Below, one piece after another: positions 3,528 through 60,844 of a stretch of 64,000 bases of DNA. A program made the translations under genes and the position numbers. Every line of letters begins with the position of its first letter. Position 1 is the first letter of the stretch. Under the pieces are notes generated by a model, which was not told where the DNA came from, did not search any database, and was given only the letters and a program-made list of their open reading frames with translations. The stretch is from Streptantibioticus cattleyicolor NRRL 8057 = DSM 46488. GTDB lineage: Bacteria > Actinomycetota > Actinomycetes > Streptomycetales > Streptomycetaceae. Location: contig NC_017586.1 of the NCBI RefSeq assembly GCF_000240165.1, forward strand, positions 2,852,001 to 2,916,000, given 5' to 3'.

Positions 3528-4160
3528 CCGACTCGACGTCCTGGTCAACAACGCCGGCCTGATGGCACCGCCCCGCTCGCTCACCCCCCAGGGCCACGAG
3601 TCGCAGTTCGCCTGCAACCACCTCGGCCACTTCGCCCTTACCGGCCTGCTGCTCGACCTGCTGACCGCGGGCCGCGACCCCCGGGGGGTCACGGTGACCT
3701 CGGTCAACCACCGCAAGGCACGGCTGTACTTCGACGACCTGACCGGCGAACGCCGTTACTCCCCGATGGGCTACTACAACCAGTCGAAGCTGGCCAACGC
3801 CGTCTTCGGCCACGAACTCCACCGCCGCCTCACCGAAGCCGGCAGCCCCGTACACAGCCTGCTCGCCCACCCCGGCTACACCGCCACCAACCTCCAGACC
3901 TCCGCCCCGGTCGCCCTCTGGCGCATCGTCTTCGGCCGCCTCGGCAAACCCCTCGCCCCCCGCCCCGCGGCGCCCTCCCCAGCTCTACGCCGCCACCTCC
4001 CCCACCGCCCGCCCCGGCCACCTCGTCGGCCCCAACGGCCCCACCGAACTCCGCGGCACCCCCACCGAAGTCCCCCTCTCCCCCACCGCCTCCAACCCCG
4101 AGGTGGGCCGCCAGCTGTGGGAGGTGTCGGAGGAGGGGAGTGGGGTGAGGTACGGGAGTC
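3528..4160 (+). pseudogene. Short-chain dehydrogenase, 5' deleted and frameshifted
   Basis: The plus strand encodes the middle of a classical SDR: '[14 protein letters not shown]' (the NNAG motif), '[17 protein letters not shown]', and the catalytic Tyr-Lys in '[16 protein letters not shown]'. The N-terminal TGxxxGxG cofactor motif is missing. Near 3960-3980 the frame breaks: after 'GRLGKPLAP' the reading moves to another frame that continues '[20 protein letters not shown]' and ends near '[11 protein letters not shown]', as SDR proteins do. Deletion plus frameshift make it non-functional. It sits head to head with the tetR remnant. Confidence 0.8.
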
Positions 4161-4184
4161 AGCGGCCCCACGACCGCGCCGCCG

Positions 4185-4595
4185 TCAGTTCGAGTCGAAG
4201 ACCTCGATGTCGCATTTCGCGGCACCGCTCCGTTCGATCCTCACATCACTCGTGATCAGCGTCGCGGCGAGAGCCTCGGCCAGGGCGACGTACTGGGCAT
4301 CGTAGGCGCTCAGGTTTCCGTGGAGCGCCTGAACGCGGTCCCAGAGGAAGAGCGTCTCGTGCCGGAGGAGCGGGAGCAGCTGGTAGGCATCGATGGCCTT
4401 GGCCACTTCCCGTTCCGTGAGCTTGCCCCCTCTCCTCATGCCGAGCAGTGCGGACTGGATCTCGTAGTCGACGAGTGTGGGCACGGCGACGGCAGCGGCG
4501 GCGCCCACCCGGGCGCGGACGGCAACGCCGAGCGGGTCGTGGTTGGTGAGGAAGTGCGCAAGGGCGGAGCAGTCGATGACGACCGTCTCGCTCAC
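4185..4595 (-). CDS. vapC: VapC-type PIN-domain toxin
   Basis: 136 residues, normal VapC length. The acidic residues of a PIN ribonuclease are visible: '[12 protein letters not shown]' (first Asp), '[11 protein letters not shown]' (Glu), '[15 protein letters not shown]' (Asp) and 'LITSDVRI' (last Asp). Such toxins cleave RNA when freed from their antitoxin. The ATG overlaps the last bases of the upstream vapB by 4 nt (ATGA), the usual antitoxin-first arrangement implying translational coupling and autorepression by the VapBC complex. It lies between the SDR scar and the Wadjet operon. Confidence 0.9.
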
Positions 4596-4822
4596 CGCCC
4601 GGTCCTCGCCTCGTCGATCGCGGCCAGCACGTCCTCGGTGCTGACGCCGGCCGTGGTCTCCCGGTTCAGGCGCGCCACCATCTCCGCCATGGTGGGCTTG
4701 GACGTCTCGCGCGCGATGAGATCGAGAAAGTAGGCCTGAAGGGACTTGCCGGCCTGGGCGGCCCGTACCTTCAGGGTCTGGATCTGGTCATCCGGGACGT
4801 CCCGAATCGTCAGGGCGGTCAT
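4592..4822 (-). CDS. vapB: VapB-type antitoxin
   Basis: 76 residues starting at the ATG at 4820-4822 ('MTALTIRDVPDDQIQTLKVR'). The N-terminus resembles the ribbon-helix-helix FitA/VapB type (T-I-R-D-V-P, then 'LKVRAAQAGKSLQAYF'); the C-terminus should wrap the toxin. The frame is open further upstream, but that stretch is antisense to the Wadjet jetA gene and is not credible protein. The region just upstream (about 4823-4850) contains TATA-like bases ('cagtatagcg') plausible as promoter and operator. Function is inferred from pairing with vapC. Confidence 0.88.
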   Translation of the reverse strand: MTALTIRDVPDDQIQTLKVRAAQAGKSLQAYFLDLIARETSKPTMAEMVARLNRETTAGVSTEDVLAAIDEARTGR

Positions 4823-5050
4823 GATGGCAGTATAGCGTCCGTGCATGCAAAACGCAGATAGCGCATGCTCGGGTGCGAGCGGCGCCGGAACTGAAAGCCG
4901 CCCGAGCGCGCCGCCAGGGCCGAGGTTCTCTGCCTCCTGATCGTGTCGTCGAGGGCCGCAGAAGGCCCAGCTGTGCCGACAGGCGGTCCGGCAACGACGA
5001 GTTCCCGGTTCGTGCCCGGGCAGGTGGCGGGGTCTGGGAGACTGGGGCCC

Positions 5051-6637
5051 GTGTCCGACGCTCCGCCGCCCCAGCCGTTCGCTTATCTGCAGGCGCCGAA
5101 CGCCGCCCTCTACGGCCAGGTCCTGGCCGTGTTCGCGCAGGCACGGGAGCGGTTCATCGTCCATCTGCGGCCGGAGGACGTGGCCGCGGAGCTGCGCCAG
5201 GGCTCCGGCGGCACGGCGGCGGTGCCGGTCGGGACCGAGGCGGTCGGCGCGGCGCTGGAGAAGCTGGTCGAGTGGGGCAACCTCCGTGCGGACGCCGACA
5301 CCGGCCGGGTGACATCGGTCGAGGACTTCCACCGGGCGCGCTACCTGTACCAGCTCACCCGCCACGGCCAGGCCGCGCTGCGCGCGATGGCCGTGTACGA
5401 GCAGGCGCTGGGCCGGCGCGGCGAGTTGCAGTCGGTCGCGCTGGCGGACATCGCCGAGCAGCTGGGCTCGCTGCTGGTCCTCGCGCAGGCGGAGGATCCC
5501 GATCCGGCCAAGACCCACCTGCTGCTGCTCCAGATCGCCGAGCGGTTCGGGAGCCTGGCGGACAACGCCCAGGCGTTCATGGCCTCGCTGCGCCGCACCA
5601 TCGACTTCCAGGACGGCGACGAGGAGGCGTTCATCGCGTACAAGGACCGGCTGGTCGAGTACATCGAGCGTTTCATCGCCGACCTGGCGGGCCGCGGCGC
5701 GCAGATCGCGGACCTGCTCACCCGGCTGAACGCGGCCGGCGTGGGGCGCCTGCTCCTGGCGGCCGCCCGCCGGGAGGCCGGTGACGCCGTACCCGACTCG
5801 GACGAACCGGAGGCGGAGCTGGCCCGCGCGGAGGCGGCGCAGTCGGCGCTCGTCGCATGGGAGAACCGCTGGCGGGGCCTGGCCGACTGGTTCCTGAGCC
5901 GGTCGCCGCGTCAGCCCTCCCAGGCGAAGCTGCTGCGCGGTGCTGCGGTCAGCGCGATCACCGGTCTGATCAACACCGTGGCAGCGCTGAACGAGCGGCG
6001 CGGCGGGCGCTCGGATCGGTCGGCCGACTTCCGGGCGCTGGCCCGGTTCTTCGCGCAGGCCGCGGACGACGCGGCCGCCCACCGCCTGTGGCGGGCGGCC
6101 TTCGCCCTCACCCCGGCCCGGCATCTGACGGTCGACGCCGCTACCCAGGCGGCCTGGCAGGAGGCGGATCTCGCTGCCACCACGCCGTGGGCCGAGGCCC
6201 CGCCGCTGGAGATCAGCCCGCGGCTGCGTGAGACCGGTTCGTACGAGCGGCGCGGTAGGCCGAACCGGGTCGCGGACCGCACCGCGGCGCGGCAGGTGCT
6301 GGCCGAGCAGGTCGAGCGGGAGGCCGCCCAGACCACCGCCGCCCGGGCTCGGCTGGCCACCGACGGCCCGGTGCTGCTCTCCGAGCTGGCCGGCCCGGAC
6401 GGGCTCGACCCGCACGCGTTCCGCTTGTTCCTCGCGGTACTCGGCGACGCGCTGTCGGCCCGGGTGCCGGGGGAGAGCGAGTCCTCGGCCCTCACCGGGG
6501 ACGGCACGATGGAGGTCCGGCTGAAGCTGGTCGACCCGGACACGACGGTGCGGATCCCGACCGCGGACGGCGTGCTCTGCGGGCCGGAGCACATCATCGA
6601 GATCATCGACCTGGCGCCGACGGGAGATGTGGTATGA
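5051..6637 (+). CDS. jetA: Wadjet component JetA (DUF2397/TIGR02677 family)
   Basis: 528 residues from GTG 5051 ('VSDAPPPQPFAYLQAPNAAL'). An upstream in-frame ATG at 4943 would add a low-complexity N-terminus, and GGGAG at 5035-5039 supports the GTG. I place it in DUF2397 from the family pattern ('FAYLQAPNAALYGQVLAVF', 'VEYIERFIADL') and from being first of four genes in the order DUF2397-DUF2398-SMC ATPase-DUF2399. In Wadjet systems this subunit is the kleisin-like part of an SMC complex that restricts circular plasmids. The stop overlaps the next start by 4 nt. Confidence 0.88.
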   Translation: MSDAPPPQPFAYLQAPNAALYGQVLAVFAQARERFIVHLRPEDVAAELRQGSGGTAAVPVGTEAVGAALEKLVEWGNLRADADTGRVTSVEDFHRARYLYQLTRHGQAALRAMAVYEQALGRRGELQSVALADIAEQLGSLLVLAQAEDPDPAKTHLLLLQIAERFGSLADNAQAFMASLRRTIDFQDGDEEAFIAYKDRLVEYIERFIADLAGRGAQIADLLTRLNAAGVGRLLLAAARREAGDAVPDSDEPEAELARAEAAQSALVAWENRWRGLADWFLSRSPRQPSQAKLLRGAAVSAITGLINTVAALNERRGGRSDRSADFRALARFFAQAADDAAAHRLWRAAFALTPARHLTVDAATQAAWQEADLAATTPWAEAPPLEISPRLRETGSYERRGRPNRVADRTAARQVLAEQVEREAAQTTAARARLATDGPVLLSELAGPDGLDPHAFRLFLAVLGDALSARVPGESESSALTGDGTMEVRLKLVDPDTTVRIPTADGVLCGPEHIIEIIDLAPTGDVV

Positions 6638-7824
6638 CCGACGCGGACGTTCAGGCCGAGCGGCGCCGGGCCGCCCGCGCGCTGCTCGCCTCACCGCTGA
6701 TGACCAGCGGAAGCGAGGCCAAAAGAAGTGAGGACTTTCGGCTGGTCCGCAAGCACGCGGGCGAGCTGGCGTCCTGGTTCACCCAGGAGACCGGTTGGCG
6801 GCTGGTGGTCGACGCGGGGGCCGCGCGGCTGTACAAGACGCCCGCCCGGCCGGATGACGCGACCCGGCCCGCCCGGGCGCCGCGGACCAGGGTGCCGTTC
6901 ACCCGCCGCCGCTATGTGCTGCTCTGCCTGGCGCTGGCCGTACTGGAACGGGCCGACGCCCAGATCACCCTGGGCCGGCTGGCCGACGGTGTGCTGACGG
7001 CGACCGGCGACCCGGTGCTGGTGGCGGCGGGGATCGAGTTCCGGATGGACCGCCGTGAGGAGCGCTCCGACTTGGTGGCCGCCGTGCGGCTGCTGCTGGA
7101 GTGGGGTGTCCTGCACCGGGTGGCGGGCGACGAGGAGGCGTACCTGTCAGAGGCGTCGAACGACGTGCTCTACGACGTGCGGCGGCGCGTCCTGGCCGCC
7201 CTGCCGGCCGCGACCCGTGGCCCGTCCACCGTCGAGGCCGCCGCCCCGGACCAGCGGCTGACCCTGCTCACCTCCGACGTCGCGCCCGACACCGAGGAGT
7301 TGCGGCTGCGTGCGCTGCGCCACCGGCTCACCCGCAGACTGCTGGACGATCCGGTGGTGTACTACGCCGAGCTGCCGGAGGACGAGCGCGCCTACCTGGT
7401 CTCCCAGCGCCACGCGATCACCCGCCGGATCACCGAACTCACCGGCCTGGTCGCGGAGATGCGTGCCGAGGGGATCGCCATGGTCGACCCGGAGGACGAG
7501 CTGACCGACCTGCGGATGCCCGAGCAGGGCACCGACGGCCACGCCACCTTGCTGGTCGCCGCCCACCTCGCCACCGCCGACGGCCCCCGCACCGAGCCGC
7601 AACTCGTCGAGCTGGTACGGCAACTGGCCGCGCAACACCGCTCGTACTGGCGCAAGGGCGCCGCCGAGCCCGCCGCGGCGGCCGAGTTGCTGTCCCAGGC
7701 TCTCGACCGGCTCACCGCCCTCGACCTGGTGACCCGCGAGGGCGGCCACGTCACCGCCAAGCCGGCGCTGGTCCGCTACGCCCTGGCCGCCCCGACCATC
7801 CGAAAGGCCCGTTCCCGCGCATGA
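6634..7824 (+). CDS. jetB: Wadjet component JetB (DUF2398/TIGR02678 family)
   Basis: 396 residues, ATG at 6634 overlapping the jetA stop (ATGA). The protein has the DUF2398 look: 'RRAARALLASPLMTSGSEAK' at the N-terminus, then 'VPFTRRRYVLLCLALAVLE', 'VLLEWGVLHR'-like and 'DDPVVYYAELPEDERAYL' segments. In Wadjet complexes it is the KITE-like partner of the kleisin and bridges the SMC heads. No enzyme motif is expected and none is seen. Its 3' end overlaps jetC by 4 nt, so stoichiometry is probably set by translational coupling. Confidence 0.88.
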   Translation: MTDADVQAERRRAARALLASPLMTSGSEAKRSEDFRLVRKHAGELASWFTQETGWRLVVDAGAARLYKTPARPDDATRPARAPRTRVPFTRRRYVLLCLALAVLERADAQITLGRLADGVLTATGDPVLVAAGIEFRMDRREERSDLVAAVRLLLEWGVLHRVAGDEEAYLSEASNDVLYDVRRRVLAALPAATRGPSTVEAAAPDQRLTLLTSDVAPDTEELRLRALRHRLTRRLLDDPVVYYAELPEDERAYLVSQRHAITRRITELTGLVAEMRAEGIAMVDPEDELTDLRMPEQGTDGHATLLVAAHLATADGPRTEPQLVELVRQLAAQHRSYWRKGAAEPAAAAELLSQALDRLTALDLVTREGGHVTAKPALVRYALAAPTIRKARSRA

Positions 7825-10800
7825 CCGCTCCTCTGCCCGAGCCGACCCGCACCCGCTGGCAGCCGTTGCGCGCCGGGCTGGTCGACCTGTTCTACTACGA
7901 CGCCGAGGAGTTCCGCTTCCACGACGGGCGGCTGCTGCTGCGCGGCAACAACGGCACCGGCAAGTCCAAGGTGCTCGCGCTCACCCTGCCGTTCCTCCTG
8001 GACGGCGAGCTCGCCGCGCACCGGGTCGAACCGGACGGCGACCGCGCCAAGCGGATGGAGTGGAACCTGCTGCTCGGCGGCAAGCACCCGCACGACGAGC
8101 GCACCGGCTACACCTGGCTGGAGTTCGGACGGATCGGCGAGGACGGCAAGCCGCAGTACCGGACGGTCGGCTGCGGCCTGAAAGCGGTCAAGGGCCGGGG
8201 CATCGCCAAGCACTGGTTCTTCACCACCTCGCTGCGCGTCGGCGCTCAGCTGCCGCTGATGTCCGCCACCCGCGTCCCGTACACCCGGGAGCGGCTGCGC
8301 GAGGCGCTGGAGGGCCACGGACTGGTCCACGACACGGCCGCCGAGTACCGCAGGGCGGTGGACGAGCAGCTGTTCGGCCTCGGCCCGGGCCGTTACGAGG
8401 CGCTGGTCAACCTGCTGATCCAGCTGCGCCAGCCGCAGCTGTCCAAGAAGCCCGACGAGAAGCTGCTGTCCAAGGCGCTCACCGAGGCCCTGCCGCCGCT
8501 CGACCCCGCCCTGGTCGGCGAGGTGGCGGAGGCGTTCCGCGGCCTGGACGAGGAGCGGCACGCCCTCCAGGCGCTCGCCGAGGCATCCGGCGCCGCCGCC
8601 GACTTCCTGACGCACTACCGCCGTTACGCGCAGACAGCGGCCAAGCGGCAGGCTGCGGTGCTGCGCGTCGCGCACAGCCGGTACGAGCACCTGGGCCGCG
8701 ACCTCGGCGAGGCCGAGAGCGAACACACCGCCGCCGAGGAGCGGCTGGGGCAGGCGGAGGCGCGTCTGGCGGAACTGGAGGACGCCCGGGAGACCCTGGC
8801 CGCCGCCCGGGACGCGCTCACCCGCAGCCCCGAGATGGACGCCGCCCGTGAGCTGGAACAGGCGGGGAAGACCTCCGAGGCCCTGCGCGCCGTCGCCGAC
8901 GACCGCACCGGTGCCTGCCGCACCGCGCGCCGCCAGGCCGACGACTGGCAGCGCCGCGCCGCCGCCGCCCACGCCCAGCACGAGACCGACCGGGCCGCCC
9001 TCGCCGCGGCCGACGACGCCGCACGCCACGCCGCCGAAGCGGCTGGAATCGACCACGCGCCGGTGGCCGGGACGCTGGAGGGTGACCACGCACCGTTCCA
9101 GGACACCCGCCGGGCGGGTGAGCGGGCGGTCGAACGCCGCCGCCAGGCCGTCACCGGCCTGGCCGCGCTGCTCGCCGCGGCCGAGCGGGCGCACGAGCGG
9201 TCCCGTACGGCGCAGACCGAAGCCACGCGCCGCTCCGCCGACCTGGAGGCCGCCCGCGAGCGGTCCGCCGAGGCCGCGCGGTCCGTCGCCGAGCAGGGCG
9301 CGGCCCTGACCGCGGCCTGGCGTGCCTGGGCCGTCGGCACGACCGAGCTGCGCCTGCCCGACCCCGACCAGGCCCTGGCCGCCCTGGAAGCCTGGACGGA
9401 CACCCTGGCCGGGCCCGACCCGGTGGCCGAGGCCGCCGCCGCGGCGTACCACGCGGCCGTGGGCGCGCTCACCCGCCGCGAGGCCGGACTCGACGCCGAG
9501 CACGCCGCGGTACGGCGTGAACTCGCCGCCGTGGAGGAGGAGATCGCCCGCCTGGAATCCGGCGGCCACGACGCCCCGCCCCTGGCGCACACCCGCGATC
9601 CGGGTGCCCGCGCCGGCCGTCCGGGTGCGCCGCTGTGGCGGGCCGTGGACTTCGCCGACGCGGTACCGGCCGAGCACCGTGCCGGGATCGAGGCCGCGCT
9701 GGAGGCCGCCGGGTTGCTGGATGCCTGGGTCACCCCGGACGGCACTCTGCTCGACGCCGACGACGCCGTCCTGCTGCCCGGCACCGGGGCTCCCGGCACC
9801 AGTCTCGCTGCCGTGCTGCGCCCGGCCGTCGATCGCGCCGACCCGTCGGCCGCCGCCCTCGACGACGCCGCCGTCCGGGCCGCCCTGGCGTCGATCGCCC
9901 TCGGCGCGGACACCGACCACCACACCTGGGTCGCCACCTGCGGCCGGTACCGGATCGGCGCCCTGACCGGCCGCTGGACCAAGCCCGCCGCCCACTACAT
10001 CGGCGAAGGCGCCCGCGAGGCCGCCCGCCGCGCCCGGCTCGCCGAGCTGGCCGACAAGCGCGGTGAACTCGCCTTTCGGCTCAACGAGGTGAGCGAGCAG
10101 CTCGCCGCCGTCCGTGACCGGGCCACCGCGCTCGCCGCCGAGCAGCAGAACCAGCCCTCCGACCACGCCCTGCGCGAGGCACACGCCCGCGCCGGACACG
10201 AGGCCGAAGCCGTACACCGCCTGACGGACCGGCTGACCGACGCCGAGCGCGAGGCCGCCACCCGTCAGGAGGACGCGGACCGCGCCGACCGGGAAGTCCA
10301 CGAGTACGCCCAGGACACCGGCCTGCCCACCACCCGCGAGGAGCTCGAACAGGTCCGCGACGCGGTGTCCGGCTACGCCGCCGCCCTCGCCGCGCTGCTT
10401 CCGGCCGCCGCCGCCCGGGCTCGCTCCGCCACCCTCGCGGCCGAGACCGCCGCCGAGGCCGAGGCCGCCGCCACCGCTCTCGCCGAGGCCGAGGAGGCCG
10501 AGACCGCCGCCCGCCGTACGGCCGACGCGGCGGCCGAGCGCCACCGGGTGCTGGCCGAGACGGTCGGGGCGAGCGTCGAGGAGCTGTACCGGCGGCTGGC
10601 CGAGGCCGACGCGGCGATCGCCGCCCGGGACGCCGAGGAGAAGACCACTCGCCGCAGGCGGGACGAGGCCATGACCGCCCGTGCCCGCGCCGAGGGCCGG
10701 TGCAGCGAGATCCGCGCCCGGATCGAGGAGGCCACCGCCGAGCGCGACCGGGCCGTGGCCGCCCTGCGGGCCTTCGCCGCCACCGGCCTGCTCGCCGCGG

Positions 10801-11924
10801 CCCTGCCGGAACTCGCCGTCCCGCCCCTGGACGAGCCCTGGGCCCCCACGCCGGCCGTGGCCCTGGCCCGCACGATCAACCAGGAACTCGACGGCACCGA
10901 CGACTCCGACCGGCGCTGGGAACTGATCCAGCAGCGGATCTCCGCCGAACACAAGACGCTCACCGACGCCCTCGGCCGCCACGGCCACTCGGTCGGCATG
11001 ACCCTGCACGACGGCATCATGATCGTCGACGTGGTCTTCCAGGGCCGCACCCACGACGTGCCCGCCCTCGCCGCCTCGCTGCGCGAGGAGGTCGCGCAGC
11101 GTACCCGGCTGCTGTCCGCCAAGGAACGCGAACTGCTGGAGAACCACCTCGTCGGTGAGGTCGCGGGAGCCCTCCAGGAACTGATCGCCACCGCCGAGGA
11201 ACAGGTGCAGGCGATGAACGAGGACCTGGCCGCCCGGCCCACCTCCACCGGCATGACCCTGCGCCTGGTCTGGCAGCCCGCCAAGGACGCGCCTCCCGGT
11301 CTGGAGGCCGTCCGCGCCCGCCTGCTGCGCCAGTCCTCCGACGCCTGGACTCCGGCCGACCGGGCGACGGTCGGCGAGTTCCTCCAGGCCCGCATCGCGC
11401 AGGACCGCGAGAACAACCCCGGCGACTCCTGGGCCGACCAGCTCACCCGCGCCCTGGACTACCGCACCTGGCACGCGTTCACCATCCAGCGCCGCCAGGA
11501 CGGCCAGTGGCGCCCGGCGACCGGTCCTGCCTCCGGTGGCGAACGCGTGCTCGCCGCCTCGGTCCCGTTGTTCGCCGCGGCCTCCTCGCACTACTCCTCC
11601 GGCAGCCCGCACGCTCCACGCCTGATCGCCCTGGACGAGGCGTTCGCCGGTGTCGACGACGACTCCCGGGCCAAGTGCCTCGGCCTGCTGGCCTCGTTCG
11701 ACCTGGACGTGGTGATGACCAGCGAACGCGAATGGGCCTGCTACCCGACCGTTCCCGGCATCGCCATCGCACAGCTGAGCCGCCGCGAGGGCATCGACGC
11801 CGTCCTGGTCACCCCGTGGCGCTGGGACGGTGTCGCGCGCACCCGCGAGACCCGGGCCGTTCCGTACGTTCCCGTCCAGGCCGCGGCCGCCGGACAGACG
11901 CATCCGTCCCTCCTCGAACAGTGA
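7821..11924 (+). CDS. jetC: Wadjet SMC-like ATPase JetC (TIGR02680 family)
   Basis: 1,367 residues from ATG 7821. Walker A is GNNGTGKS (residues 42-49). A long Ala/Glu/Arg-rich coiled coil follows, with a hinge-like globular part around residues 590-730 ('LWRAVDFADAVPAEHRAGIE'). The ABC signature 'ASGGERVLAAS' lies near residue 1238 and Walker B 'LIALDEAFAGVDDDS' near 1270. This head-coil-hinge-coil-head plan is that of SMC/Rad50-type motors. In Wadjet the motor extrudes DNA loops and senses small circular DNA. The frame is open upstream of 7821, but that part overlaps jetB and is not coding. Confidence 0.93.
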   Translation: MTAPLPEPTRTRWQPLRAGLVDLFYYDAEEFRFHDGRLLLRGNNGTGKSKVLALTLPFLLDGELAAHRVEPDGDRAKRMEWNLLLGGKHPHDERTGYTWLEFGRIGEDGKPQYRTVGCGLKAVKGRGIAKHWFFTTSLRVGAQLPLMSATRVPYTRERLREALEGHGLVHDTAAEYRRAVDEQLFGLGPGRYEALVNLLIQLRQPQLSKKPDEKLLSKALTEALPPLDPALVGEVAEAFRGLDEERHALQALAEASGAAADFLTHYRRYAQTAAKRQAAVLRVAHSRYEHLGRDLGEAESEHTAAEERLGQAEARLAELEDARETLAAARDALTRSPEMDAARELEQAGKTSEALRAVADDRTGACRTARRQADDWQRRAAAAHAQHETDRAALAAADDAARHAAEAAGIDHAPVAGTLEGDHAPFQDTRRAGERAVERRRQAVTGLAALLAAAERAHERSRTAQTEATRRSADLEAARERSAEAARSVAEQGAALTAAWRAWAVGTTELRLPDPDQALAALEAWTDTLAGPDPVAEAAAAAYHAAVGALTRREAGLDAEHAAVRRELAAVEEEIARLESGGHDAPPLAHTRDPGARAGRPGAPLWRAVDFADAVPAEHRAGIEAALEAAGLLDAWVTPDGTLLDADDAVLLPGTGAPGTSLAAVLRPAVDRADPSAAALDDAAVRAALASIALGADTDHHTWVATCGRYRIGALTGRWTKPAAHYIGEGAREAARRARLAELADKRGELAFRLNEVSEQLAAVRDRATALAAEQQNQPSDHALREAHARAGHEAEAVHRLTDRLTDAEREAATRQEDADRADREVHEYAQDTGLPTTREELEQVRDAVSGYAAALAALLPAAAARARSATLAAETAAEAEAAATALAEAEEAETAARRTADAAAERHRVLAETVGASVEELYRRLAEADAAIAARDAEEKTTRRRRDEAMTARARAEGRCSEIRARIEEATAERDRAVAALRAFAATGLLAAALPELAVPPLDEPWAPTPAVALARTINQELDGTDDSDRRWELIQQRISAEHKTLTDALGRHGHSVGMTLHDGIMIVDVVFQGRTHDVPALAASLREEVAQRTRLLSAKERELLENHLVGEVAGALQELIATAEEQVQAMNEDLAARPTSTGMTLRLVWQPAKDAPPGLEAVRARLLRQSSDAWTPADRATVGEFLQARIAQDRENNPGDSWADQLTRALDYRTWHAFTIQRRQDGQWRPATGPASGGERVLAASVPLFAAASSHYSSGSPHAPRLIALDEAFAGVDDDSRAKCLGLLASFDLDVVMTSEREWACYPTVPGIAIAQLSRREGIDAVLVTPWRWDGVARTRETRAVPYVPVQAAAAGQTHPSLLEQ

Positions 11925-11931
11925 GTGGCCG

Positions 11932-13233
11932 ATGACGGATCTGCCGCGGCTGCGTCGCCTGCTCGGCGGTCCCGAGACCGCCTGGCTGCTGGACCGCGCC
12001 CGCGACCGGATGGCCACCGGGCGGCCCCTGGACACCCCCGCCACGCTCAAGGCCGCCACCCCCGAACAACGCCGCGCGATCGAACTGCTGCTCGGCCGCC
12101 GACTGCGCTCGGGCAGCTCCCTGACCGTGCCACTGGCCGATGTCGACCGCGTGCTGCGCGCATCGCAGGCCTGCCCGAACGGCCTCGCCGCGGCGGTGGT
12201 CGCGCTGACCGGCCCGGTGACCGACCGGCGGGCCCAGGACACCGCCCTCGCGGCCGCCTGGCGACAGGCGCTGGCCGAACTCGACCACCCCGCAATCGCC
12301 GCCCGGGCCGAACTCGCGCCCTGGCGAGCCAAGATGGAAGCCACCGGCCTGCTCAAACGCCTCTCCGGAGGCGACCCGGCAACCGCGCGGCGGCTCGCCG
12401 TCGACGTCGTACGGGTGCTCTCCGCGCTCCCCGCCGACGGCCTCACCCTCCCCGTCCTCGCCGCCCGTACCCTCGGCGACGCCCACGCCCTGGACGACGG
12501 CCGCCCGCTGGCCGCGCTCGTCCTGTCCGCTGTCCGCGCGCTCGCCGCGCTGCCCGCCGAGACGGCCGCCGGCGCCGAGGGCCGCCGAGCCGCCTGGGCC
12601 GCCGTCGGAGTGGCGCTGGACGACCTCTCCTCCCGGGTCCTCGTCCTCGGCCTGCCCGGCTCCACCGGGGACACCACCGGCCGCATCCTCGCCGCCGCCC
12701 GCGAAGGCGGCGAACCCTGCGTCCTGACGCTCCGCCAGATCGCCGCGGGGCCGCTCGAACTCGGACTGACCGACCACACCACCGTCCACGCCTGTGAGAA
12801 CCCCGCCGTCCTCGCCGCCGCGGCCGACGAGCTGGGCCCCGGCTGCCCACCGCTGGTCTGCGTGGAAGGCAACCCGTCCGCCGCCGCCCGCACCCTGCTC
12901 AGCCACATCGCCGACCAGGGCTACCCGATCGCCTACCACGGCGACTTCGACTGGGGCGGCATCCGCATCGCCACCGGCATCCTGCGCCTGCCGACCGCCG
13001 CACCCTGGCGCTACGACGCCCCTTCCTACCTCACCGCCGTCGACCGCGGCCTCGGTACCCCGCTCACCACCGGCATCCCAGCCCCTACCCCCTGGGACCC
13101 CGGCCTCGCACTCGCCCTCACCCACCACGCCGTCCGCGTCGAGGAGGAACAGCTCCTCGACCAGCTGCTCGCCGACCTCCACAGCCGCTGCACACGCGCC
13201 GACGGCGGCGCGAGGCGGCGTCATCGCGGATGA
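11932..13233 (+). CDS. jetD: Wadjet nuclease JetD (DUF2399/TIGR02679 family)
   Basis: 433 residues from ATG 11932, 7 nt after the jetC stop. The C-terminal half carries a Toprim-like pattern: a catalytic Glu in 'LVCVEGNPSAAA' (about residue 310) and an acidic motif 'AYHGDFDWGGIRIA' (about 335). In Wadjet this subunit cuts the plasmid once the SMC motor has trapped it. N-terminal residues 1-120 likely form the dimer arm. The last residues ('ARRRHRG') look unstructured. The operon ends here, only 56 bp before the convergent DUF5994 gene. Confidence 0.9.
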   Translation: MTDLPRLRRLLGGPETAWLLDRARDRMATGRPLDTPATLKAATPEQRRAIELLLGRRLRSGSSLTVPLADVDRVLRASQACPNGLAAAVVALTGPVTDRRAQDTALAAAWRQALAELDHPAIAARAELAPWRAKMEATGLLKRLSGGDPATARRLAVDVVRVLSALPADGLTLPVLAARTLGDAHALDDGRPLAALVLSAVRALAALPAETAAGAEGRRAAWAAVGVALDDLSSRVLVLGLPGSTGDTTGRILAAAREGGEPCVLTLRQIAAGPLELGLTDHTTVHACENPAVLAAAADELGPGCPPLVCVEGNPSAAARTLLSHIADQGYPIAYHGDFDWGGIRIATGILRLPTAAPWRYDAPSYLTAVDRGLGTPLTTGIPAPTPWDPGLALALTHHAVRVEEEQLLDQLLADLHSRCTRADGGARRRHRG

Positions 13234-19486: not shown

Positions 19487-20254
19487 CACACGACACGCCC
19501 TCAGCGGTGCCGCTCTCCCGTTGCGGCGGTCGTCGCCGTGCCCAGCTCGGGGAACCGGGACTGCCCAACGCACCTCACGCGGGCGGGAAGTAAGGGTCCG
19601 CCCGGACTCGCCCCGGCCTACCCGCAGGTCTGGCCAACGCGACGACGTGACGAACTGGAATGTGCCGGCGACTGGGGATCGCGTGCCTGGACATCCCGGG
19701 CCACGGCGGGGTCCACGTCTCGGCGGATCGGTGCCGAGCCGCAGCGCGGCGCCGGTACCGCCACATGACGAGCCCCGTGTCGTCTCGCCTCACCGCAAGA
19801 CGGCCGCCCTGCCTTTCCGCACGCCCGGCCGCCCGTCCCCTCTCTTCGGACGTACCCGATCCTTCATTCATCCCCGTCGACCGCTCTGTGCGTCAGCGTC
19901 GGCCCCGACCATCGCTGTGCCGTGATGGGCTCGGCCGAGCTGACGGCATCTGCGGTGGTCTGCATCGTCCGAGCCCGCGTACTTGTAGACGGACGACAAC
20001 GCGTCGCATCTGTTCGCTCCTCCGGTCGGTCCCCTGCTCCTGCTCCAGTTGCAGCGCCCGTGCACTCTCGTCCACCGCCCGTCCACCGGAGCCCGTACAG
20101 CTTGAACGATCAAAACTGGCTGTCGCCGGGAAATGGCCAGGTCAGGACCCCTGGCTGTACAGCTTCGCCACTGAAACCAAAACCGCTGGCCTACGCATTG
20201 CGACGCATAGAACGAGAGTGTCCGATCTGAGCGTTTTCCATGGTCAAGGCAACG
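19487..20254. other. Gene-poor chromosomal stretch before the tRNA remnant
   Basis: About 770 bp in which I see no convincing coding frame. It holds a paired octamer GTCCACCG-N3-GTCCACCG at 20070-20088. It also holds, at 20190-20203, a 13/14 match (CCTACGCATTGCGA) to the anticodon-loop region of the tRNA remnant at 20324-20337. These may mark older recombination at the same locus. Confidence 0.4.
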
Positions 20255-20286
20255 AAAAAACCGCAGGTCAAAGGCATGACCTGCGG
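20255..20286 (-). terminator. Rho-independent terminator behind the tRNA-Thr remnant
   Basis: A perfect 10-bp stem (CCGCAGGTCA/TGACCTGCGG, plus-strand 20261-20270 and 20277-20286) is followed in the minus direction by six T (plus-strand AAAAAA, 20255-20260). It lies 10 bp beyond the tRNA 3' end and would terminate that tRNA transcript. Confidence 0.8.
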
Positions 20287-20296
20287 TTTACCTACG

Positions 20297-20338
20297 AGCC
20301 GCCTGAGGGAATCGAACCCTCGACCTACGCATTACGAG
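20297..20338 (-). tRNA. tRNA-Thr(CGT) 3' half only: probable attachment site
   Basis: Read on the minus strand: anticodon loop CTCGTAA, anticodon 3' stem TGCGT, variable AGGTC, a perfect T-arm GAGGG-TTCGATT-CCCTC, then acceptor AGGCGGC. Beyond the anticodon loop (plus-strand >20338) the expected 5' half (ACGCA, D-arm, GCCGCCT) is missing. A bare tRNA 3' half followed by its own terminator is the classic att end left when an element integrates into a tRNA gene. It implies the element lies to the right, with the restored tRNA at its far end beyond the window. Confidence 0.75.
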
Positions 20339-20968
20339 ACCATGAGCGTTCGTGTTGCGTGGTGCCTCGTCGTGCCGTGCGGTGACGTTTTTCCTGATCA
20401 GAGAATGTGCAACAGGTTGACCCATGCCACCCCGTGATGCACCGTCCAAAGGCATCTGTCCACCGGCTGTCCACCGAAGGGGTTGCAGCCGACCAACCAG
20501 CGAGACTGGAGCCGGGCTTGCGACGACACTGTCAACCAGTCAGAGAGACGAACGGAGGTCACTGTAGGACCTCCACAAGCGCCCCTTCGCTGGGGTTCCG
20601 GCACCGTATCGCCCTGCTCGAGTGCCGGGCGCCGGAGCCCGCGAAGGAGCAGCCGCGTCTGCATCCTGTATCGCTCGGCCCGGTGACTGTCAGGGCGCCG
20701 CTTTCGCTTCCGTTGGCGTGTAGCGATCCAGGCTCCTCGATGTGAATGCCGCTCCTTCGTCTCCTGACAGCGGCCAAGATAATTTCCCCACGTACGGCCA
20801 ACAACTCCCCGCTGCCGGCCCCCACCTGCGGCCAGTTCAGCTCCCCACTTCCTGCACGTTGGACACGGTGCGTAGCTGCCGGGGGCGCACTCCTGGGTAC
20901 CGGCTTGTAATGCCGCTTGGTACCCCACGCCGGAAGCTCTACGGTTGTGGCGTGGCGGGATACCGAAG
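20339..20968. other. Element end: no gene seen; carries direct-repeat copy 1
   Basis: About 630 bp next to the attachment site. No convincing gene, and in particular no integrase, could be read. The notable feature is the repeat at 20456-20478 (two GTCCACCG octamers on an 11-nt pitch), nearly identical to 45541-45563. Base composition is slightly lower in GC than the flanks, as is common for element ends. Confidence 0.45.
20456..20478. repeat. 23-bp direct repeat, copy 1
   Basis: The pattern is CT-GTCCACCG-GC-T-GTCCACCG-AA, matching 45541-45563 at 22 of 23 positions in the same orientation. The two octamers start 11 nt apart, about one helical turn, as in integrase arm-type binding sites. 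A looser copy, with the same spacing, lies at 20070-20088 on the chromosomal side. Confidence 0.6.
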
Positions 20969-45540: not shown

Positions 45541-45563
45541 CTGTCCACCGGTTGTCCACCGAA
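45541..45563. repeat. 23-bp direct repeat, copy 2
   Basis: CT-GTCCACCG-GT-T-GTCCACCG-AA, one mismatch from copy 1 at 20456-20478. Together they bracket the 25-kb cargo; to the right starts the conjugation-related part. Confidence 0.6.
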
Positions 45564-45741: not shown

Positions 45742-46677
45742 GTGGCCGAGCTGATGATGTTCCGGCGAGACGCGGAGGGGCGGGACGTCGAGCTGCCCGG
45801 TTCGACGGTGGCGCTGGAGGTGGAACTGCAGCGGCGGGTCGAGGCCAGCCTGGAGGCGATGCTCGGCATCCGGTTCCTGGCGTCGGAGTACCCGACCGGT
45901 CCGTGGCACCGGGGCCGGATCGACACCCTCGGGCTGGACGAGAACGGCAGCCCGGTGGTGATCGAGTACAAGAAGGGCTCCGACAGCGGGGTGCTGTCGC
46001 AGGCCGTCTCCTACCTCTCCTGGCTGGACTCCGCGCGGCACGAGGTCGAGGCGCTCGTCCGGAAGGTGCTCGGCGCGGAGGCCGCCGAGACCATCGACTG
46101 GCGTCGCCCGCGGATGGTCTGCATCGCGGCCAGCTTCTCCCACCACGACCGCGTAGCCGTGCAGCGGCTGCCCGAGCGGATCGACCTGGTGCGCTACCGC
46201 GTCTTCGAGGGTGACCTGCTGAGCCTGCTGCTCGTGGACTCCTCGCCCGGTTCGGCGACCGCTGCTTCATTTCGGCGAACCAGGGAGCGGGACACGGCGA
46301 CCACCAGCGTGCCGGCGGCCCCGGCGGCTTCCGCGCTGGCGGGCCCTGGTCTCGTCCCGGAGTGCCTGCGCGACCTGTACGCGGAGTTGGACGACGCGCT
46401 CACGGCGTGGGGCGAGGTCGAGGTGGCCCCTCTCCGGCACTACATCGCCTACAGGCGGCTGGTGAACGTCGCCTCCGTGATCTTCCGTCCGAAGCACGAG
46501 GCGATCCTCGTCTACCTCAGACTCGACCCGGGCACCGTCGCACTGGAGGAGGGCTTCACCCGGGACATGCGCGGCATCGGACACCTCGGAACCGGTGACC
46601 TGGAGGTACGCCTCGCGTCGGCGGCCGACCTGGAGAGGGCAGCACCGCTGATCCGGCGGGCGTTCGAAGCGGCCTGA
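45742..46677 (+). CDS. DUF91-like (NucS-type) nuclease with DUF5655 C-terminal domain
   Basis: 311 residues from GTG 45742 (GGGAGGGG upstream). The N-terminal half has a PD-(D/E)XK pattern: 'HRGRIDTLGLDENGSPVVIE' then YKKG (Asp, then E-x-K), with 'QAVSYLSWLDSARHEVEALV'. The C-terminal half (about 195-311) matches DUF5655: 'PLRHYIAYRRLVNVASVIFR', 'LDPGTVALEEGFTRDMRGIG' and 'GTGDLEVRLASAADLE'. DNA cleavage is inferred from the motif. It converges with the DNA methyltransferase 93 bp downstream, so a defence or modification pair is possible. Confidence 0.8.
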   Translation: MAELMMFRRDAEGRDVELPGSTVALEVELQRRVEASLEAMLGIRFLASEYPTGPWHRGRIDTLGLDENGSPVVIEYKKGSDSGVLSQAVSYLSWLDSARHEVEALVRKVLGAEAAETIDWRRPRMVCIAASFSHHDRVAVQRLPERIDLVRYRVFEGDLLSLLLVDSSPGSATAASFRRTRERDTATTSVPAAPAASALAGPGLVPECLRDLYAELDDALTAWGEVEVAPLRHYIAYRRLVNVASVIFRPKHEAILVYLRLDPGTVALEEGFTRDMRGIGHLGTGDLEVRLASAADLERAAPLIRRAFEAA

Positions 46678-48094: not shown

Positions 48095-49240
48095 ATGAAG
48101 AAGACCACGGGAGCCGTCGTCGGTCTCTTCGCAACCGGTCCGCTGCTGTTGGCCGTTCCGATCCTCGCCATCGGTGCCGGGACTGCCTCGGCTGCCTGCT
48201 CGACCGACGGTCCACAGGCTGTGGATACCTCAGCCGTCGCGGCTCAGGTCAAGGCGATCCTGAACGGCGGCGGCAAGGGGACGGTATCCGTGCCGGGGCT
48301 GGACGATCCGGCCGAGCAGGTACCCAACGCCAAGACCATCCAGGCCACCGGCGTCGCGATGAACATCCCGGCCCGCGGGCAGGTCATCGCTCTGGCTACC
48401 GCACTGCAGGAGAGCGGTCTGCGGAACCTGACCTACGGCGACCGTGATTCGCTGGGTTTTTTCCAGCAGCGGCCATCGCAGGGCTGGGGCACCGCGAACG
48501 AGGTCCTCGACCCGGTGCACGCCTCGACGAAGTTCTACGAGGCGCTGGAGAAGGTCTCGGGCTGGCAGTCCCTGTCCGTCACCCAGGCAGCCCAGGCAGT
48601 GCAGGCGTCGGGCTTCCCCGACGCTTATGCGAAGTGGGAGCCCCTGGCCACCGCCTTGCAGAAGGCGATCGCACCGTTGCTGTCGAAGGCCGGCGGCGCG
48701 GAGTCGAGCCCTTCGCCGTCCGGCTCGGGGAGCACGGGCAGTCCTCCGCCAAGCACCACAGGAGGCTGCACGAGTGGCGGGGACGGAACCAATTTCGGAA
48801 CCATCCCGCCTGGGGCGGTGCCGACGGGTTACAAGATCCCGGCAACCGCTCCGCCGAAGGTCCAGACGGCGATCCGCTGGGCGCTCGGCCAGCTCGATAC
48901 GCCGTATCAGTGGGGCGGGAGCTGCACCGATTCCCACGGGTCCGACCCCATGGGCCGGTGTGACTGCTCCTCGTTGATGCAGCAGTCGTACAAGGCTGCC
49001 GGGGTCACCCTGACACGGACGACGTATACGCAGGTCAAGGAGGGCAAGGCCGTATCGGTCGACGCTCTCCAGCCAGGCGACCTTGTCTTCACCGAAGGAA
49101 CTGCGGAAGTCCCTGAGCACGTAGGCATGTTCCTCGGCCAGGGCTTGATCATCAACGCCCCGCACACCGGTGACGTGGTCCGCATCGCGACCCTGGCGTC
49201 CTGGAAATCGCGGATTCTCGCGGCCCGCCGAGTCGTCTGA
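48095..49240 (+). CDS. Secreted lytic/NlpC-P60 peptidoglycan hydrolase
   Basis: 381 residues. Signal peptide ('GLFATGPLLLAVPILAIGAG', cleaved near 'TASA'). A lysozyme-like part follows ('VIALATALQESGLRNLTYGD', 'LGFFQQRPSQGWGTANEVLD'), then a Ser/Pro/Gly linker and an NlpC/P60 domain with catalytic Cys in 'GRCDCSSLMQQSYKAAG', His in 'PEHVGMFLGQGL' and a third polar residue near 'NAPHTG'. It corresponds to the VirB1-like wall-opening enzyme of conjugation systems and opens the operon. Confidence 0.9.
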   Translation: MKKTTGAVVGLFATGPLLLAVPILAIGAGTASAACSTDGPQAVDTSAVAAQVKAILNGGGKGTVSVPGLDDPAEQVPNAKTIQATGVAMNIPARGQVIALATALQESGLRNLTYGDRDSLGFFQQRPSQGWGTANEVLDPVHASTKFYEALEKVSGWQSLSVTQAAQAVQASGFPDAYAKWEPLATALQKAIAPLLSKAGGAESSPSPSGSGSTGSPPPSTTGGCTSGGDGTNFGTIPPGAVPTGYKIPATAPPKVQTAIRWALGQLDTPYQWGGSCTDSHGSDPMGRCDCSSLMQQSYKAAGVTLTRTTYTQVKEGKAVSVDALQPGDLVFTEGTAEVPEHVGMFLGQGLIINAPHTGDVVRIATLASWKSRILAARRVV

Positions 49241-50355: not shown

Positions 50356-51750
50356 ATGGGAGTCTGCGACTGGCCCCTGATGGACAAGGTGTGCGGCGCC
50401 GTTGACTTCGCCACCAACCCTGCCGGAACCGTCACCGACGGCATCGGAGCATGGATCGCGAAGTCGGCGGGAGAACTGGCCGCCAGCGCGGCGAACCTCG
50501 CCGCCAAGGCCGTCAACGAGACCACGGCCATCGACCTCAACGCCCGATGGTTCCGGGACAACTACGAGCTGCTGCTACCCATCGGGCTCGCCCTGACCGT
50601 CGGCACGTTCTGCATCCAGTTGATGTTCGCGGCCTGGCGAAGGGACGAACGCGCTCTGGCCCGAGCCGCCATCGGCACCATGACCGGCGTCCTCTTCAGC
50701 TTCTGCGCCGTTGCCTTCACCACCGTCGCCATCACCGTGGTCGACGCCTTGTCCGACGGCCTGTTCAAGGCAGCCAACAGTTCTGTCGACGACGCGATCC
50801 GGCGCGTGGTGAAGGTCAACGAACTGGGGGCGATGTACGGCTTGGGCTGGGGTGTCCCAGCCCTGGTCGCCCTAGGCTGCGCGATCGGCGCCTTCTTGTA
50901 CTGGGGCGTGATGGTAGCCCGCAAGGTCGGCGTGCTGATCATGGTCGCCCTCGCCGTCTTCGCCGGGTCCGGCGGCGGCTGGGAGGTCGCCAAGCGATGG
51001 CGGCGCGGCTGGATCGAGGCCACCGCCACCCTGGTCGTCTCGAAACTCCTGATGACCGTGGTCTTCCTGATCGGTGTCTCCGCGATGGGCAAGTCCGACG
51101 CCCACGACGGCATGGCAGCGTTGTCCGACGCGATGGCCGGCATCGTCGTGATGGTCTTGGTGCTGCTCTGCCCGTACGCGACGTACAAGTTCGTTCACTG
51201 GGCGAGCGACGGTGGCGGCCACGACGACCTGCACCGTACCGGCGTCGCCGGGATGGCAGTCGCCGCGGGAGCTGCCAAGACCGCAGGCAGCCTGGCGATG
51301 CAGGCCAGCACCGGCACCCCTGCACCGCAGGGGCCGAGCAAGGTCCCCGGCGCAGGCAGTGACGGTGTCGCCTCCGGGATCAACCCGTCCGGCAGCCTCA
51401 GCAAGGAGGGCATCGACGCCGGACCGCCCCAGCCCCGGACACGGTTCCGGTACGGCGAAGATGCGAACGCCTCCGGCGACAAGGGACGAGCCCTGATCCA
51501 GCGCCCCGGCATCCCGCCGCTCATCACCCGGCCCAGCGAGGGCGACACGGGGGGCTCGGAAGGAGGCGCCCCGGGTGGTCAGTTCGCCGGCGCGTCGGCG
51601 CCCGGGGACAGCATGACTCGCGCTGGTGCCGCCCCGCCTGCCGACCCGGCACCCGGAGCCTCGCCTCCGCCTACTACCGGTCCGTCGGCAACCGGTTCCG
51701 CGACGCCGACGAGCTGGGTCTACCCCAACCAGCCGCCTTCGGGGTCCTGA
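50356..51750 (+). CDS. Polytopic conjugation membrane protein (VirB6/TrbL-like)
   Basis: 464 residues, ATG 50356 with GGAAGGAGG upstream. At least five membrane helices between residues 70 and 285 ('LLLPIGLALTVGTFCIQLMF', 'VGVLIMVALAVFAGSGGGWE', 'AGIVVMVLVLLCPYATYKFV'). A long Gly/Pro/Ser-rich disordered tail fills residues 300-464. This layout is typical of TrbL/VirB6 proteins of Gram-positive systems. A strong hairpin follows the gene. Confidence 0.75.
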   Translation: MGVCDWPLMDKVCGAVDFATNPAGTVTDGIGAWIAKSAGELAASAANLAAKAVNETTAIDLNARWFRDNYELLLPIGLALTVGTFCIQLMFAAWRRDERALARAAIGTMTGVLFSFCAVAFTTVAITVVDALSDGLFKAANSSVDDAIRRVVKVNELGAMYGLGWGVPALVALGCAIGAFLYWGVMVARKVGVLIMVALAVFAGSGGGWEVAKRWRRGWIEATATLVVSKLLMTVVFLIGVSAMGKSDAHDGMAALSDAMAGIVVMVLVLLCPYATYKFVHWASDGGGHDDLHRTGVAGMAVAAGAAKTAGSLAMQASTGTPAPQGPSKVPGAGSDGVASGINPSGSLSKEGIDAGPPQPRTRFRYGEDANASGDKGRALIQRPGIPPLITRPSEGDTGGSEGGAPGGQFAGASAPGDSMTRAGAAPPADPAPGASPPPTTGPSATGSATPTSWVYPNQPPSGS

Positions 51751-51794: not shown

Positions 51795-51884
51795 ATGCCC
51801 CCACCAGAAACGGAGTCCCGCCATGGCCAGCAGAAGAGCGCCGCACGCCTCGCCCTTCGCCCGCTCCCACCGTCTGGAACCACC

Positions 51885-53357
51885 ATGTCTGACAAGCACC
51901 AGGCCCAAGCCACCCCGGCCACCGTCAAGTTTCCCCACCGCAGCAGGCGCGGCATCCTGCTCGGCCTGACCGCACCGCAACTGATCGTCGTCAGTCTCAC
52001 CGGCCTTCTCCTGCTCGCTGTGATCCTCACGCGCGGCGTGGTCGGCGCCCTCGAACTCATCCCCCTCTGGGCCGTCATCGCCCTCCTGACGTTCGTCCGG
52101 TACCGAGGCCGCGCCCTGGCCGACTGGGCTCCGATCGTCACCCGGTACGTCCTGCGCCGGATGCGGGGCCAGCTGATCTGGCTCGCCCGGCCCTCCCGCC
52201 GGCCGATCCGCGAAGGACTCCTCCACCTGCCCGGTACCGCGGCCAGCCTGCGTGTGGTCACCGCCCCCGACCGCCGATACGGCGCGGTCCACAACCCCCA
52301 CACCGGCACCCTGACCGCCGTCGTCAAGGTCTCCTCCCGCGCCTACGCACTGCTCGACCCGGGCACCCAGAACGCCAACGTCAACGGCTGGGGACGCGCG
52401 CTGGCCGCTCTCGCCCGAACCGGCCAGGTCGCCCGTATCCAGGTGATCGAGCGCACGGTCCCGGACTCCGGCGACGCGCTGCGCCGGTACTGGGAGGAGC
52501 ACGGCCAGTCCGACGCTCCCGTGGCCGGCGCGATCTACAGCGAGCTGATCCAGAGCGCGGGCCCGGCCGCCGCGCCGCACGAGGCGTACGTCGCGGTGTC
52601 GCTGGACGCCAAGGCCGCACGACGTCTGATCAACCAGGCCGGAGGCGGTCTCACCGGGGCCTTCAGCGTCCTGGCGCAGCTGACCTCGACCTTCGACCAG
52701 GCCGCGCGCACCGCTGGGCTCAACCCGACCGGCTGGCTCACGGCCTGCGAGATCGCGGCCGTCGTGCGAACGGCGTACGATCCCAAGGCTCTTGCGGCGC
52801 TGGACCGTTGGTCCACCGCAGGACGCCCCGAGGCTGAGCCCGCCGCTGCCGGCCCCGTCGTGGTCGTCGAGAAGTCGGACCACATCGCGACCGACTCGGC
52901 CTTCCACTCCACGTACTGGGTGGAGAACTGGCCGCGGGCTGAGACGTCGGCGGGCTTCTTGCATCAGCTGCTGTTCACCGCCGGGGTCCGGCGCACCCTG
53001 TCGCTGTCGTACGAGCCCAAGGGGCTGGACGCCGCGCTGCGTGACGTCCGGCGCAAGAAGGCCAGCGTGATCGCCGACGCCGCCGAGCGAGCCCGGCGTG
53101 GCCAGGTCGACTCCGAGGCGGACTCGATCGAGTACCAGGACATCAAGTCCCGTGAGCGCCAGCTCATCGCGGGCCACGCGGATGTTGCCCTGACCGGCCT
53201 GCTGACCGTCTCGGCCGACTCGGAGGAGGAACTCCGTTCCGCCTGCGCGGTCGTGGAGACCGCGGCCGTCGGCGCCCAGCTCGATCTGCGGCCTCTCACC
53301 TGGCAGCAGGCTGAAGCGTTCACCGCCGCCGCCATGCCGCTCGCTCTCGCCGCCTGA
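51885..53357 (+). CDS. SCO6880-family conjugation protein
   Basis: 490 residues from ATG 51885. Two membrane helices near the N-terminus ('LIVVSLTGLLLLAVILTRGV', 'ELIPLWAVIALLTFVRY', PrgI-like), then a large cytoplasmic part with 'RYGAVHNPHTGTLTAVVKVS' and 'YWVENWPRAETSAGFLHQLL', which resembles the N-terminal half of VirB4/TraC ATPases without a P-loop. The ATPase half is encoded two genes on. SCO6880 homologues mark T4SS-like streptomycete elements. Confidence 0.82.
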   Translation: MSDKHQAQATPATVKFPHRSRRGILLGLTAPQLIVVSLTGLLLLAVILTRGVVGALELIPLWAVIALLTFVRYRGRALADWAPIVTRYVLRRMRGQLIWLARPSRRPIREGLLHLPGTAASLRVVTAPDRRYGAVHNPHTGTLTAVVKVSSRAYALLDPGTQNANVNGWGRALAALARTGQVARIQVIERTVPDSGDALRRYWEEHGQSDAPVAGAIYSELIQSAGPAAAPHEAYVAVSLDAKAARRLINQAGGGLTGAFSVLAQLTSTFDQAARTAGLNPTGWLTACEIAAVVRTAYDPKALAALDRWSTAGRPEAEPAAAGPVVVVEKSDHIATDSAFHSTYWVENWPRAETSAGFLHQLLFTAGVRRTLSLSYEPKGLDAALRDVRRKKASVIADAAERARRGQVDSEADSIEYQDIKSRERQLIAGHADVALTGLLTVSADSEEELRSACAVVETAAVGAQLDLRPLTWQQAEAFTAAAMPLALAA

Positions 53358-53845: not shown

Positions 53846-53871
53846 CCTGCCTTCCATCTGGAGAAACGTTC

Positions 53872-60734: not shown

Positions 60735-60844
60735 CTCCCCCCACCACCAACTCCTCCCCGAACAGGAGCTTCCTCGATGACTTGCAGAAGAGCGCCACGC
60801 GCCCCACCTCCCTCACCCGCCTGCGCTCACTCCAAGGACCCACC

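Follow-up and report, generated by a model that had tools for sequence, protein, structure and literature searches.

AICEs use an FtsK-like TraB protein, not a T4SS. A T4SS-type ICE residing in a tRNA-Thr gene, ICE01, has been described in Streptomyces RLB1-8 and RLB3-5; its circle was detected by PCR after mitomycin C, and transfer was not shown in the parts of that study drawn on here (PMC9513070). T4SS-type ICEs in Streptomyces tRNA-Thr genes, CIMEs, accretion and modular islands are all already published in the sources excerpted below. The locus described here lies in an 8.1 Mb genome of two contigs. The window, i.e., the whole stretch of DNA that was analysed, comprises 64,000 nucleotides, and its coordinates are continued beyond both ends where the surroundings are discussed.

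A displaced tRNA-Thr half and its intact partner

A sequence-only reading of the window had recognized, on the minus strand at 20,297–20,338, the 3′ half of a tRNA-Thr(CGT) followed by a terminator, with a change of sequence at the anticodon loop, and our analysis bears this out. The half consists of an anticodon loop (CTCGTAA), the 3′ anticodon strand, the variable loop, a fully paired T-arm and the acceptor strand, and a stable hairpin follows it (Table 1). No complete tRNA was found in the window by ARAGORN, and there was no Rfam match in it at gathering thresholds. A search with the 41-nt half, with the T-stem positions left free and up to three mismatches allowed, found it exactly twice in the genome: at 20,297–20,338 and in an intact tRNA-Thr(CGT) gene, which has the same orientation and lies to the right at a core-to-core distance of 108,186 bp. 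This is the sole CGT gene found in the genome, the three other tRNA-like places listed having the anticodons TGT, GGT and GGT, all Thr. Between −120 kb and +164 kb, a search for a third half with up to 11 mismatches returned only a stretch overlapping the second core described below.

Similarity between the displaced and the intact copy stops at the anticodon loop. An intact gene beyond the window had been anticipated together with an identical 3′ half; the gene is there, but the two halves are only 88% identical over 43 nt, identity being complete in the 17-bp core, gacctacgcattacgag, which has only these two matches at up to three mismatches in the 184-kb region searched. The T-stem has been exchanged, GAGGG/CCCTC in the displaced half vs TCGGG/CCCGA in the intact gene, both fully paired, and the terminators that follow also differ. 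Because the T-stems differ, the 3′ half of the intact gene would, on the usual model, come from the integrated element and the half at 20,297 from an earlier state. Among 21 genomes (17 + 4) whose displaced and intact halves could be compared, the two T-stems are unequal in three (our own, G005 and G006) and equal in 18.

The integrase and its arm repeats

The integrase that had been sought beyond the window is present inside the element, as a 538-aa tyrosine integrase of the matching type, with a PF00589 match and the catalytic R, HxxR, H and Y motifs. PF00589 has five matches in the genome, two of them in the 108-kb element. The other recombinase, at 65 kb, was rejected as the tRNA-Thr integrase: the gene trio to which it belongs is missing from the corresponding position in G105, G138 and G089, and the 538-aa protein is preferred because its homologues adjoin tRNA-Thr genes. 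Among 30 named homologue loci (L169 and L170, short and weak matches, were left out), 17 have a tRNA-Thr gene downstream according to ARAGORN (11 CGT, 6 TGT; the tRNA-Ala of L146 was not counted as a target). The core is present at 21 of them; none was found downstream at the other nine, several of which are cut by contig ends. At 10 kb, our integrase is further from the right site than those of the 21 named loci with a core (0.5–9.0 kb). More distant homologues (50–58%) are found beside tRNA-Lys, -Arg, -Met or -Phe in some cases and beside tRNA-Thr in others.

A paired repeat, GnCCACCG-3-GnCCACCG, is located 144–145 bp from the core end at 16 of the 21 core-bearing loci; the five without this arm type are all at 67–80% identity. 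Another repeat, CTCACGCA, is carried by five homologues at 58–62% that adjoin tRNA-Thr(CGT). In our genome the exact arm motif occurs four times in 8.1 Mb, each time at this locus (20,070, 20,458, 45,543 and 128,362), and with one mismatch at five further places, compared with one for the reversed control. The arm search covered nine genomes, of which G006, G021 and G024 gave no element measured at both ends; the exact motif is absent from G138, which has a variant of it, and from G032, which has another repeat. In all six elements measured at both ends (our own, G148, G105, G138 with the variant letters, G089 and G081) the Y arm is 120 bp and the X arm 144 bp from the core. These repeats are probably the arm sites of the 538-aa protein, which would be the acting integrase.

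Gene content of the 108-kb element

Genes were called with a custom composition-based finder instead of a standard annotator, and the proteins of the element were assigned by Pfam, NCBIfam and PADLOC (Table 1). Metal and transfer genes to the right of the junction, as noticed from the letters of the window, were confirmed: copper-type genes span 22.7–34.4 kb, and transfer genes begin at 48 kb. The left cargo encodes an APH-like kinase, CopC/CopD, thioredoxin-like proteins, cation efflux, SoxE-like and rhodanese proteins, a metal P-type ATPase with an HMA domain, a CsoR-type repressor, and an M48 peptidase with a BlaI-type repressor, families that point to a role in copper handling; no homologue of this segment was found in any of the four related elements compared. 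The NlpC/P60 hydrolase probably takes a VirB1-like role. The relaxase has a weak PF03432 match (E 9e-9, 577 of its 590 aa searched). The features of a T4SS-type ICE are found together, namely, two core copies, an own integrase, a coupling protein, a VirB4-like ATPase and a relaxase, the latter two as weak matches. Among the element's proteins searched against Pfam, a subset of the open reading frames, no FtsK/SpoIIIE match (AICE-type TraB) was obtained.

Table 1. Features of the tRNA-Thr locus in window coordinates
Feature	Position	Strand	Basis or remark
Wadjet type II defence segment (JetA, JetB, JetC, JetD together)	4156..13198	+	PADLOC
Right end of older element	19964..20338	.	80.8% identity to G006 C66:143681-144052
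X arm repeat GTCCACCGnnnGTCCACCG of older element	20070..20088	+	250 bp from core end
Degenerate second core (inverted repeat in relatives)	20188..20213	.	mark of older element class
Terminator hairpin of displaced tRNA half	20254..20289	-	z = -4.7; as stable in 0/200 shuffles
tRNA-Thr(CGT) 3′ half, anticodon loop to acceptor end; left attachment site of 108-kb ICE	20297..20338	-	
17-bp recombination core gacctacgcattacgag	20322..20338	.	identical in both attachment sites
Y arm repeat of ICE	20458..20476	+	120 bp from core end
Left cargo segment	21050..44470	.	Pfam
Stranded X-type arm repeat without core	45543..45561	+	
First conserved ICE backbone gene, DUF5655	45742..46677	+	PADLOC PDC-S18 candidate defence
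NlpC/P60 hydrolase	48095..49240	+	
SCO6881-family protein	50356..51750	+	weak TrbL/VirB6 match (E 0.028)
SCO6880-family protein	51795..53357	+	weak PrgI match
VirB4-like conjugation ATPase	53710..55377	+	E 2e-18 but far under the family's curated cut-off
Coupling protein (T4SS-DNA_transf, TraG-D_C)	59798..62626	+	clear match
DnaB-like protein	62.8 kb		
Tyrosine recombinase, second in element	65,053-66,120		
Relaxase and NikA/MobC-like proteins	84.0-86.4 kb		
Lanthipeptide LanB/LanC-type genes	96.8-103 kb		
HTH protein, then 538-aa integrase	116.3-118.5 kb		
Cluster: SBF-type transporter, flavoprotein oxidoreductases, MFS transporter	118.7-128.2 kb		
Intact tRNA-Thr(CGT)	128481-128556 (genome C2:2980481-2980556)	same as half	

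Further genes are distributed along the element. The second tyrosine recombinase, an HTH protein and a 412-aa protein form a trio inserted in the backbone at 65,053–67,795 (L006 1053–3795). Tn7-like TniQ, TniB, TnsB-like and weak TnsA-like genes at 74,883–80,932 (L006 10883–16932) have no counterpart in the four related elements compared. Near the integrase, at 110,041–115,768 (L004 6041–11768), there is a row of radical SAM, Amdase-like, HhH-GPD-like, PfkB, nucleoside deoxyribosyltransferase, kinase-like and MazG-like genes, kept in G138 and G089, which looks like a nucleotide pathway. The transporter and oxidoreductase content of the cluster at 118.7–128.2 kb suggests arsenic resistance.

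The related elements compared gene by gene are those of G148 (31.8 kb), G105 (95.4 kb, in a TGT tRNA-Thr), G138 (99.8 kb) and G089 (120 kb). The first backbone gene is 76–86% identical in all four, and the coupling protein 93–96% in G105, G138 and G089, the three in which the order of the 45.7–90.5 kb stretch is kept, with gaps; the stretch at 105–118.5 kb is kept in G138 and G089. The G148 element has ends of the same type, and the only genes it has in common are the first of the backbone and the integrase together with the adjoining HTH gene; the T4SS genes have no homologue in it, and it is at most a putative ICE. Segments without counterpart occupy slots: copper at the left end, the recombinase trio at 65–68 kb, Tn7-like, lanthipeptide, IS110 and the arsenic-like cluster. 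The lanthipeptide segment has weak matches in G105, and the arsenic-like cluster, which lies between the integrase and the right site, has a few homologues elsewhere in G105.

One of the four arm repeats, that at 45,543, stands without a core about 200 bp before the first conserved backbone gene. With its flank, it equals the X arms of G148 and G105 in 27 of 27 letters. The repeat is a possible relic of the right end of a former element, and suggests that the copper segment may once have been separate. The 108 kb would then be two tandem elements, an integrase-less copper element (20.3–45.6 kb) and an ICE (45.7–128.5 kb), joined when the intervening core was lost. A tandem X-core-Y junction does occur in a relative (L139), and we lean slightly towards this history, which is compatible with the model given below. 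However, no core or half was found at 45.5 kb, and the repeat fits our own Y arm in 22 of 23 letters as well, so that its type is not beyond doubt. Moreover, the four related elements differ in their left cargo and lack an exact stranded arm at this place, and left cargo can therefore arise in other ways.

Islands with a second core and no detected tyrosine integrase

Some islands at tRNA-Thr genes carry a second copy of the integrase core 132–136 bp inside their ends, in many cases as an inverted repeat. Besides the window, this end type was found in G005, G006, G020, G023 and G024; the right ends of the ICEs compared did not show it. G020 has the second core in the form of an inverted repeat, GACCTACGCA-6 bp-TGCGTAGGTC, which is perfect at two of its five ends and has a variable middle. 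The inverted-repeat pattern, with up to two mismatches, is present in 15 of 394 genomes of the family vs two for a control pattern; taking one locus per genome, a tRNA-Thr half with its core end 132–135 bp away accompanies it in 11 of the 15, and no half was found nearby in the remaining four. The second cores of G023 and of one G006 island are matched by a looser 16-letter pattern only, with no inverted repeat at up to five mismatches.

Ten islands are complete, with two halves and the second core at the right end: four in G020 and one each in G023, G005, G006 (40 kb), G153, G158 and G126. A tyrosine-integrase-like ORF was found in none of the ten with an HMM that recovered four of four integrases outside its building set (a fifth control had been part of that set), and PF00589 had no match in the islands of G020, G023, G005 and G006. 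In G108, a weak integrase-like ORF (E 2e-5) lies about 16 kb from a second-core end, the other end of that element not being reached. The Y arm is found at 120 bp at six of the ten left ends, and an X arm at 243–250 bp at five of the right ends. The G005 island, of 7.65 kb, has seven called genes, of the PIN, DinB, CMD, aldehyde dehydrogenase, SDR (two) and TetR families. In contig C28 of G020 (L174–L176), five tRNA-Thr halves stand in tandem with four islands of 5 to 24 kb between them.

These islands may simply be decayed ICEs, i.e., ordinary CIMEs, the second core being a chance left-over; we give this a substantial chance, somewhat short of even. CIMEs are described, in the part of the source used, as losing integration and transfer genes and keeping their ends (PMC5704250), only 12 of the 21 ends with a second core have an X arm at 243–250 bp, and the window's own second core is degenerate, departing from the inverted repeat in five of 20 letters. 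This reading is harder to reconcile with an X end of its own type, whose second core keeps its 132–136 bp distance in five genera counting our own, and with four listed places that have a perfect inverted repeat around four different 6-bp middles. We tentatively put forward another idea, to which we grant a slightly smaller chance: the islands could be a satellite class of their own, cargo cassettes that use the integrase of visiting ICEs through a special end, with the tRNA gene as an integron-like collection point. If so, the tRNA gene would collect whole islands, its T-stem and terminator being rewritten at some captures, and the symmetric second core 135 bp inside would be what lets the islands borrow an integrase.

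The left flank

The sequence-only reading took 20,297 as the left end of a large integrated element. It is indeed the left end of the ICE, but it is also the right end of an older element and hence an inner junction of an array, because the flank to its left resembles an element end of G006, with an arm repeat and a second core, and because the gene order common to relatives resumes only far to the left. The G006 counterpart ends at another tRNA-Thr half, and the core end of the window's second core lies 135 bp from the core end at 20,338. By tblastn, shared gene order is recovered at about −59,000 (vs G015) or −65,000 (vs G032); in G015 the genes at which it resumes end 16.7 kb from the tRNA. 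On the other side, the gene g140, to the right of the intact tRNA, adjoins the tRNA in 13 of 14 relatives with an intact gene, G026 being the exception. In G015 the same right neighbour adjoins tRNA-Thr, and in the 60 kb read there is one core and no integrase of the 538-aa type at E 1e-60. The older element has kept its right end; neither a left core nor a Y arm was found for it.

Its possible cargo includes the Wadjet segment, 92–93% identical in DNA to a segment of the tRNA-Thr array of G006, which is flanked there by a Y arm on one side and an X arm on the other and has no remaining tRNA halves next to it; Wadjet may have arrived with the older element to the left of 20,297. An NB-ARC/TPR protein is encoded at 746–2926, left of the Wadjet genes.

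Native chromosome directly to the left of 20,297 was rejected on the likeness of 19,964–20,338 to element ends in relatives. The corresponding history, in which a single simple ICE formed its attL at 20,297 in the original chromosome, is improbable: the genome does have two halves only, and between −60,000 and 20,300 no tyrosine integrase was detected, either as a PF00589 match or as a homologue of the ICE's two recombinases, yet that history leaves the element-like end, the distant return of shared gene order and the Wadjet segment held in the G006 array without explanation. A pseudo-tRNA born of partial duplication with no mobile element involved, although duplication alone can leave a half tRNA, is rejected as extremely improbable, contradicted by the paired structure: the arm repeats keep fixed distances, an integrase and a T4SS are present, and relatives share the gene order.

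A model for the locus

We therefore regard 20,297 as, very probably, an attachment junction in a tRNA-Thr(CGT) array, at which a 108-kb ICE has inserted beside the right end of an older island. This is favoured because the displaced half pairs with an intact tRNA, integrase homologues adjoin tRNA-Thr genes, the arm repeats all lie at the locus with 120/144-bp spacing in six of six elements, and the backbone order is largely kept. As with such integrases in general, the stem on either side of the anticodon loop would supply inverted core sites. The ICE circle would recombine with the tRNA-Thr(CGT) gene across the anticodon loop, the probable place of crossover, through the 538-aa tyrosine integrase. 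The old 3′ half, with its GAGGG T-stem and terminator, would be pushed to the left end of the ICE, which would supply a new 3′ half (TCGGG T-stem) and a new terminator and so restore the only tRNA-Thr(CGT) found, 108 kb away. The old half would itself have been supplied by the earlier island ending just left of 20,297, and the second core of such islands would offer an extra symmetric integrase site. Direction would depend on the arm sites, 120 and 144 bp from the core, excision would restore the GAGGG tRNA gene, and with its T4SS, coupling protein and relaxase the ICE would move itself. It is probably still mobile.

Comparison with known systems

The half tRNA can be used as a readable record, in which core, arm spacing and T-stem reveal the type and order of the inserted elements. 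With the 120/144-bp arm spacing as a ruler, the ends of a Streptomycetaceae ICE family can be located, and hence its cargo slots, here with copper-type genes, an arsenic-like cluster, lanthipeptide and Tn7-like genes. The second-core islands raise the question of whether integrase-less cargo islands evolved an end to borrow an integrase. These two-core, integrase-less islands look like the unusual and apparently new part of the locus: at tRNA-Thr, they have no mention in the titles and abstract openings searched, among which subscription journals are thinly represented.

Compared by description, ICE01 is alike in being a T4SS-type ICE in tRNA-Thr; its repeats are 93 nt long vs 43 nt here, and the excerpted account of it is without second-core islands (PMC9513070). 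Several elements, including a remnant, are likewise stacked at one tRNA in the AICE accretion at Streptomyces tRNA-Arg, according to the same excerpts (PMC9513070). PAISt of Streptomyces turgidiscabies is, in the sections of its description used here, likewise modular, an island that has a tyrosine integrase and an attachment site in its interior; its site is an 8-bp palindrome in bacA and not a tRNA, whereas the putative internal site at our locus has lost its core (PMC4057263). The CIME-ICE accretion of the ICESt1 type, as outlined in the portion of the source cited, resembles the present array in that an element without integration genes shares its site, in tandem, with an ICE or IME (PMC5704250); unlike those CIMEs, the islands of the present array type are special in that their end carries a second core.
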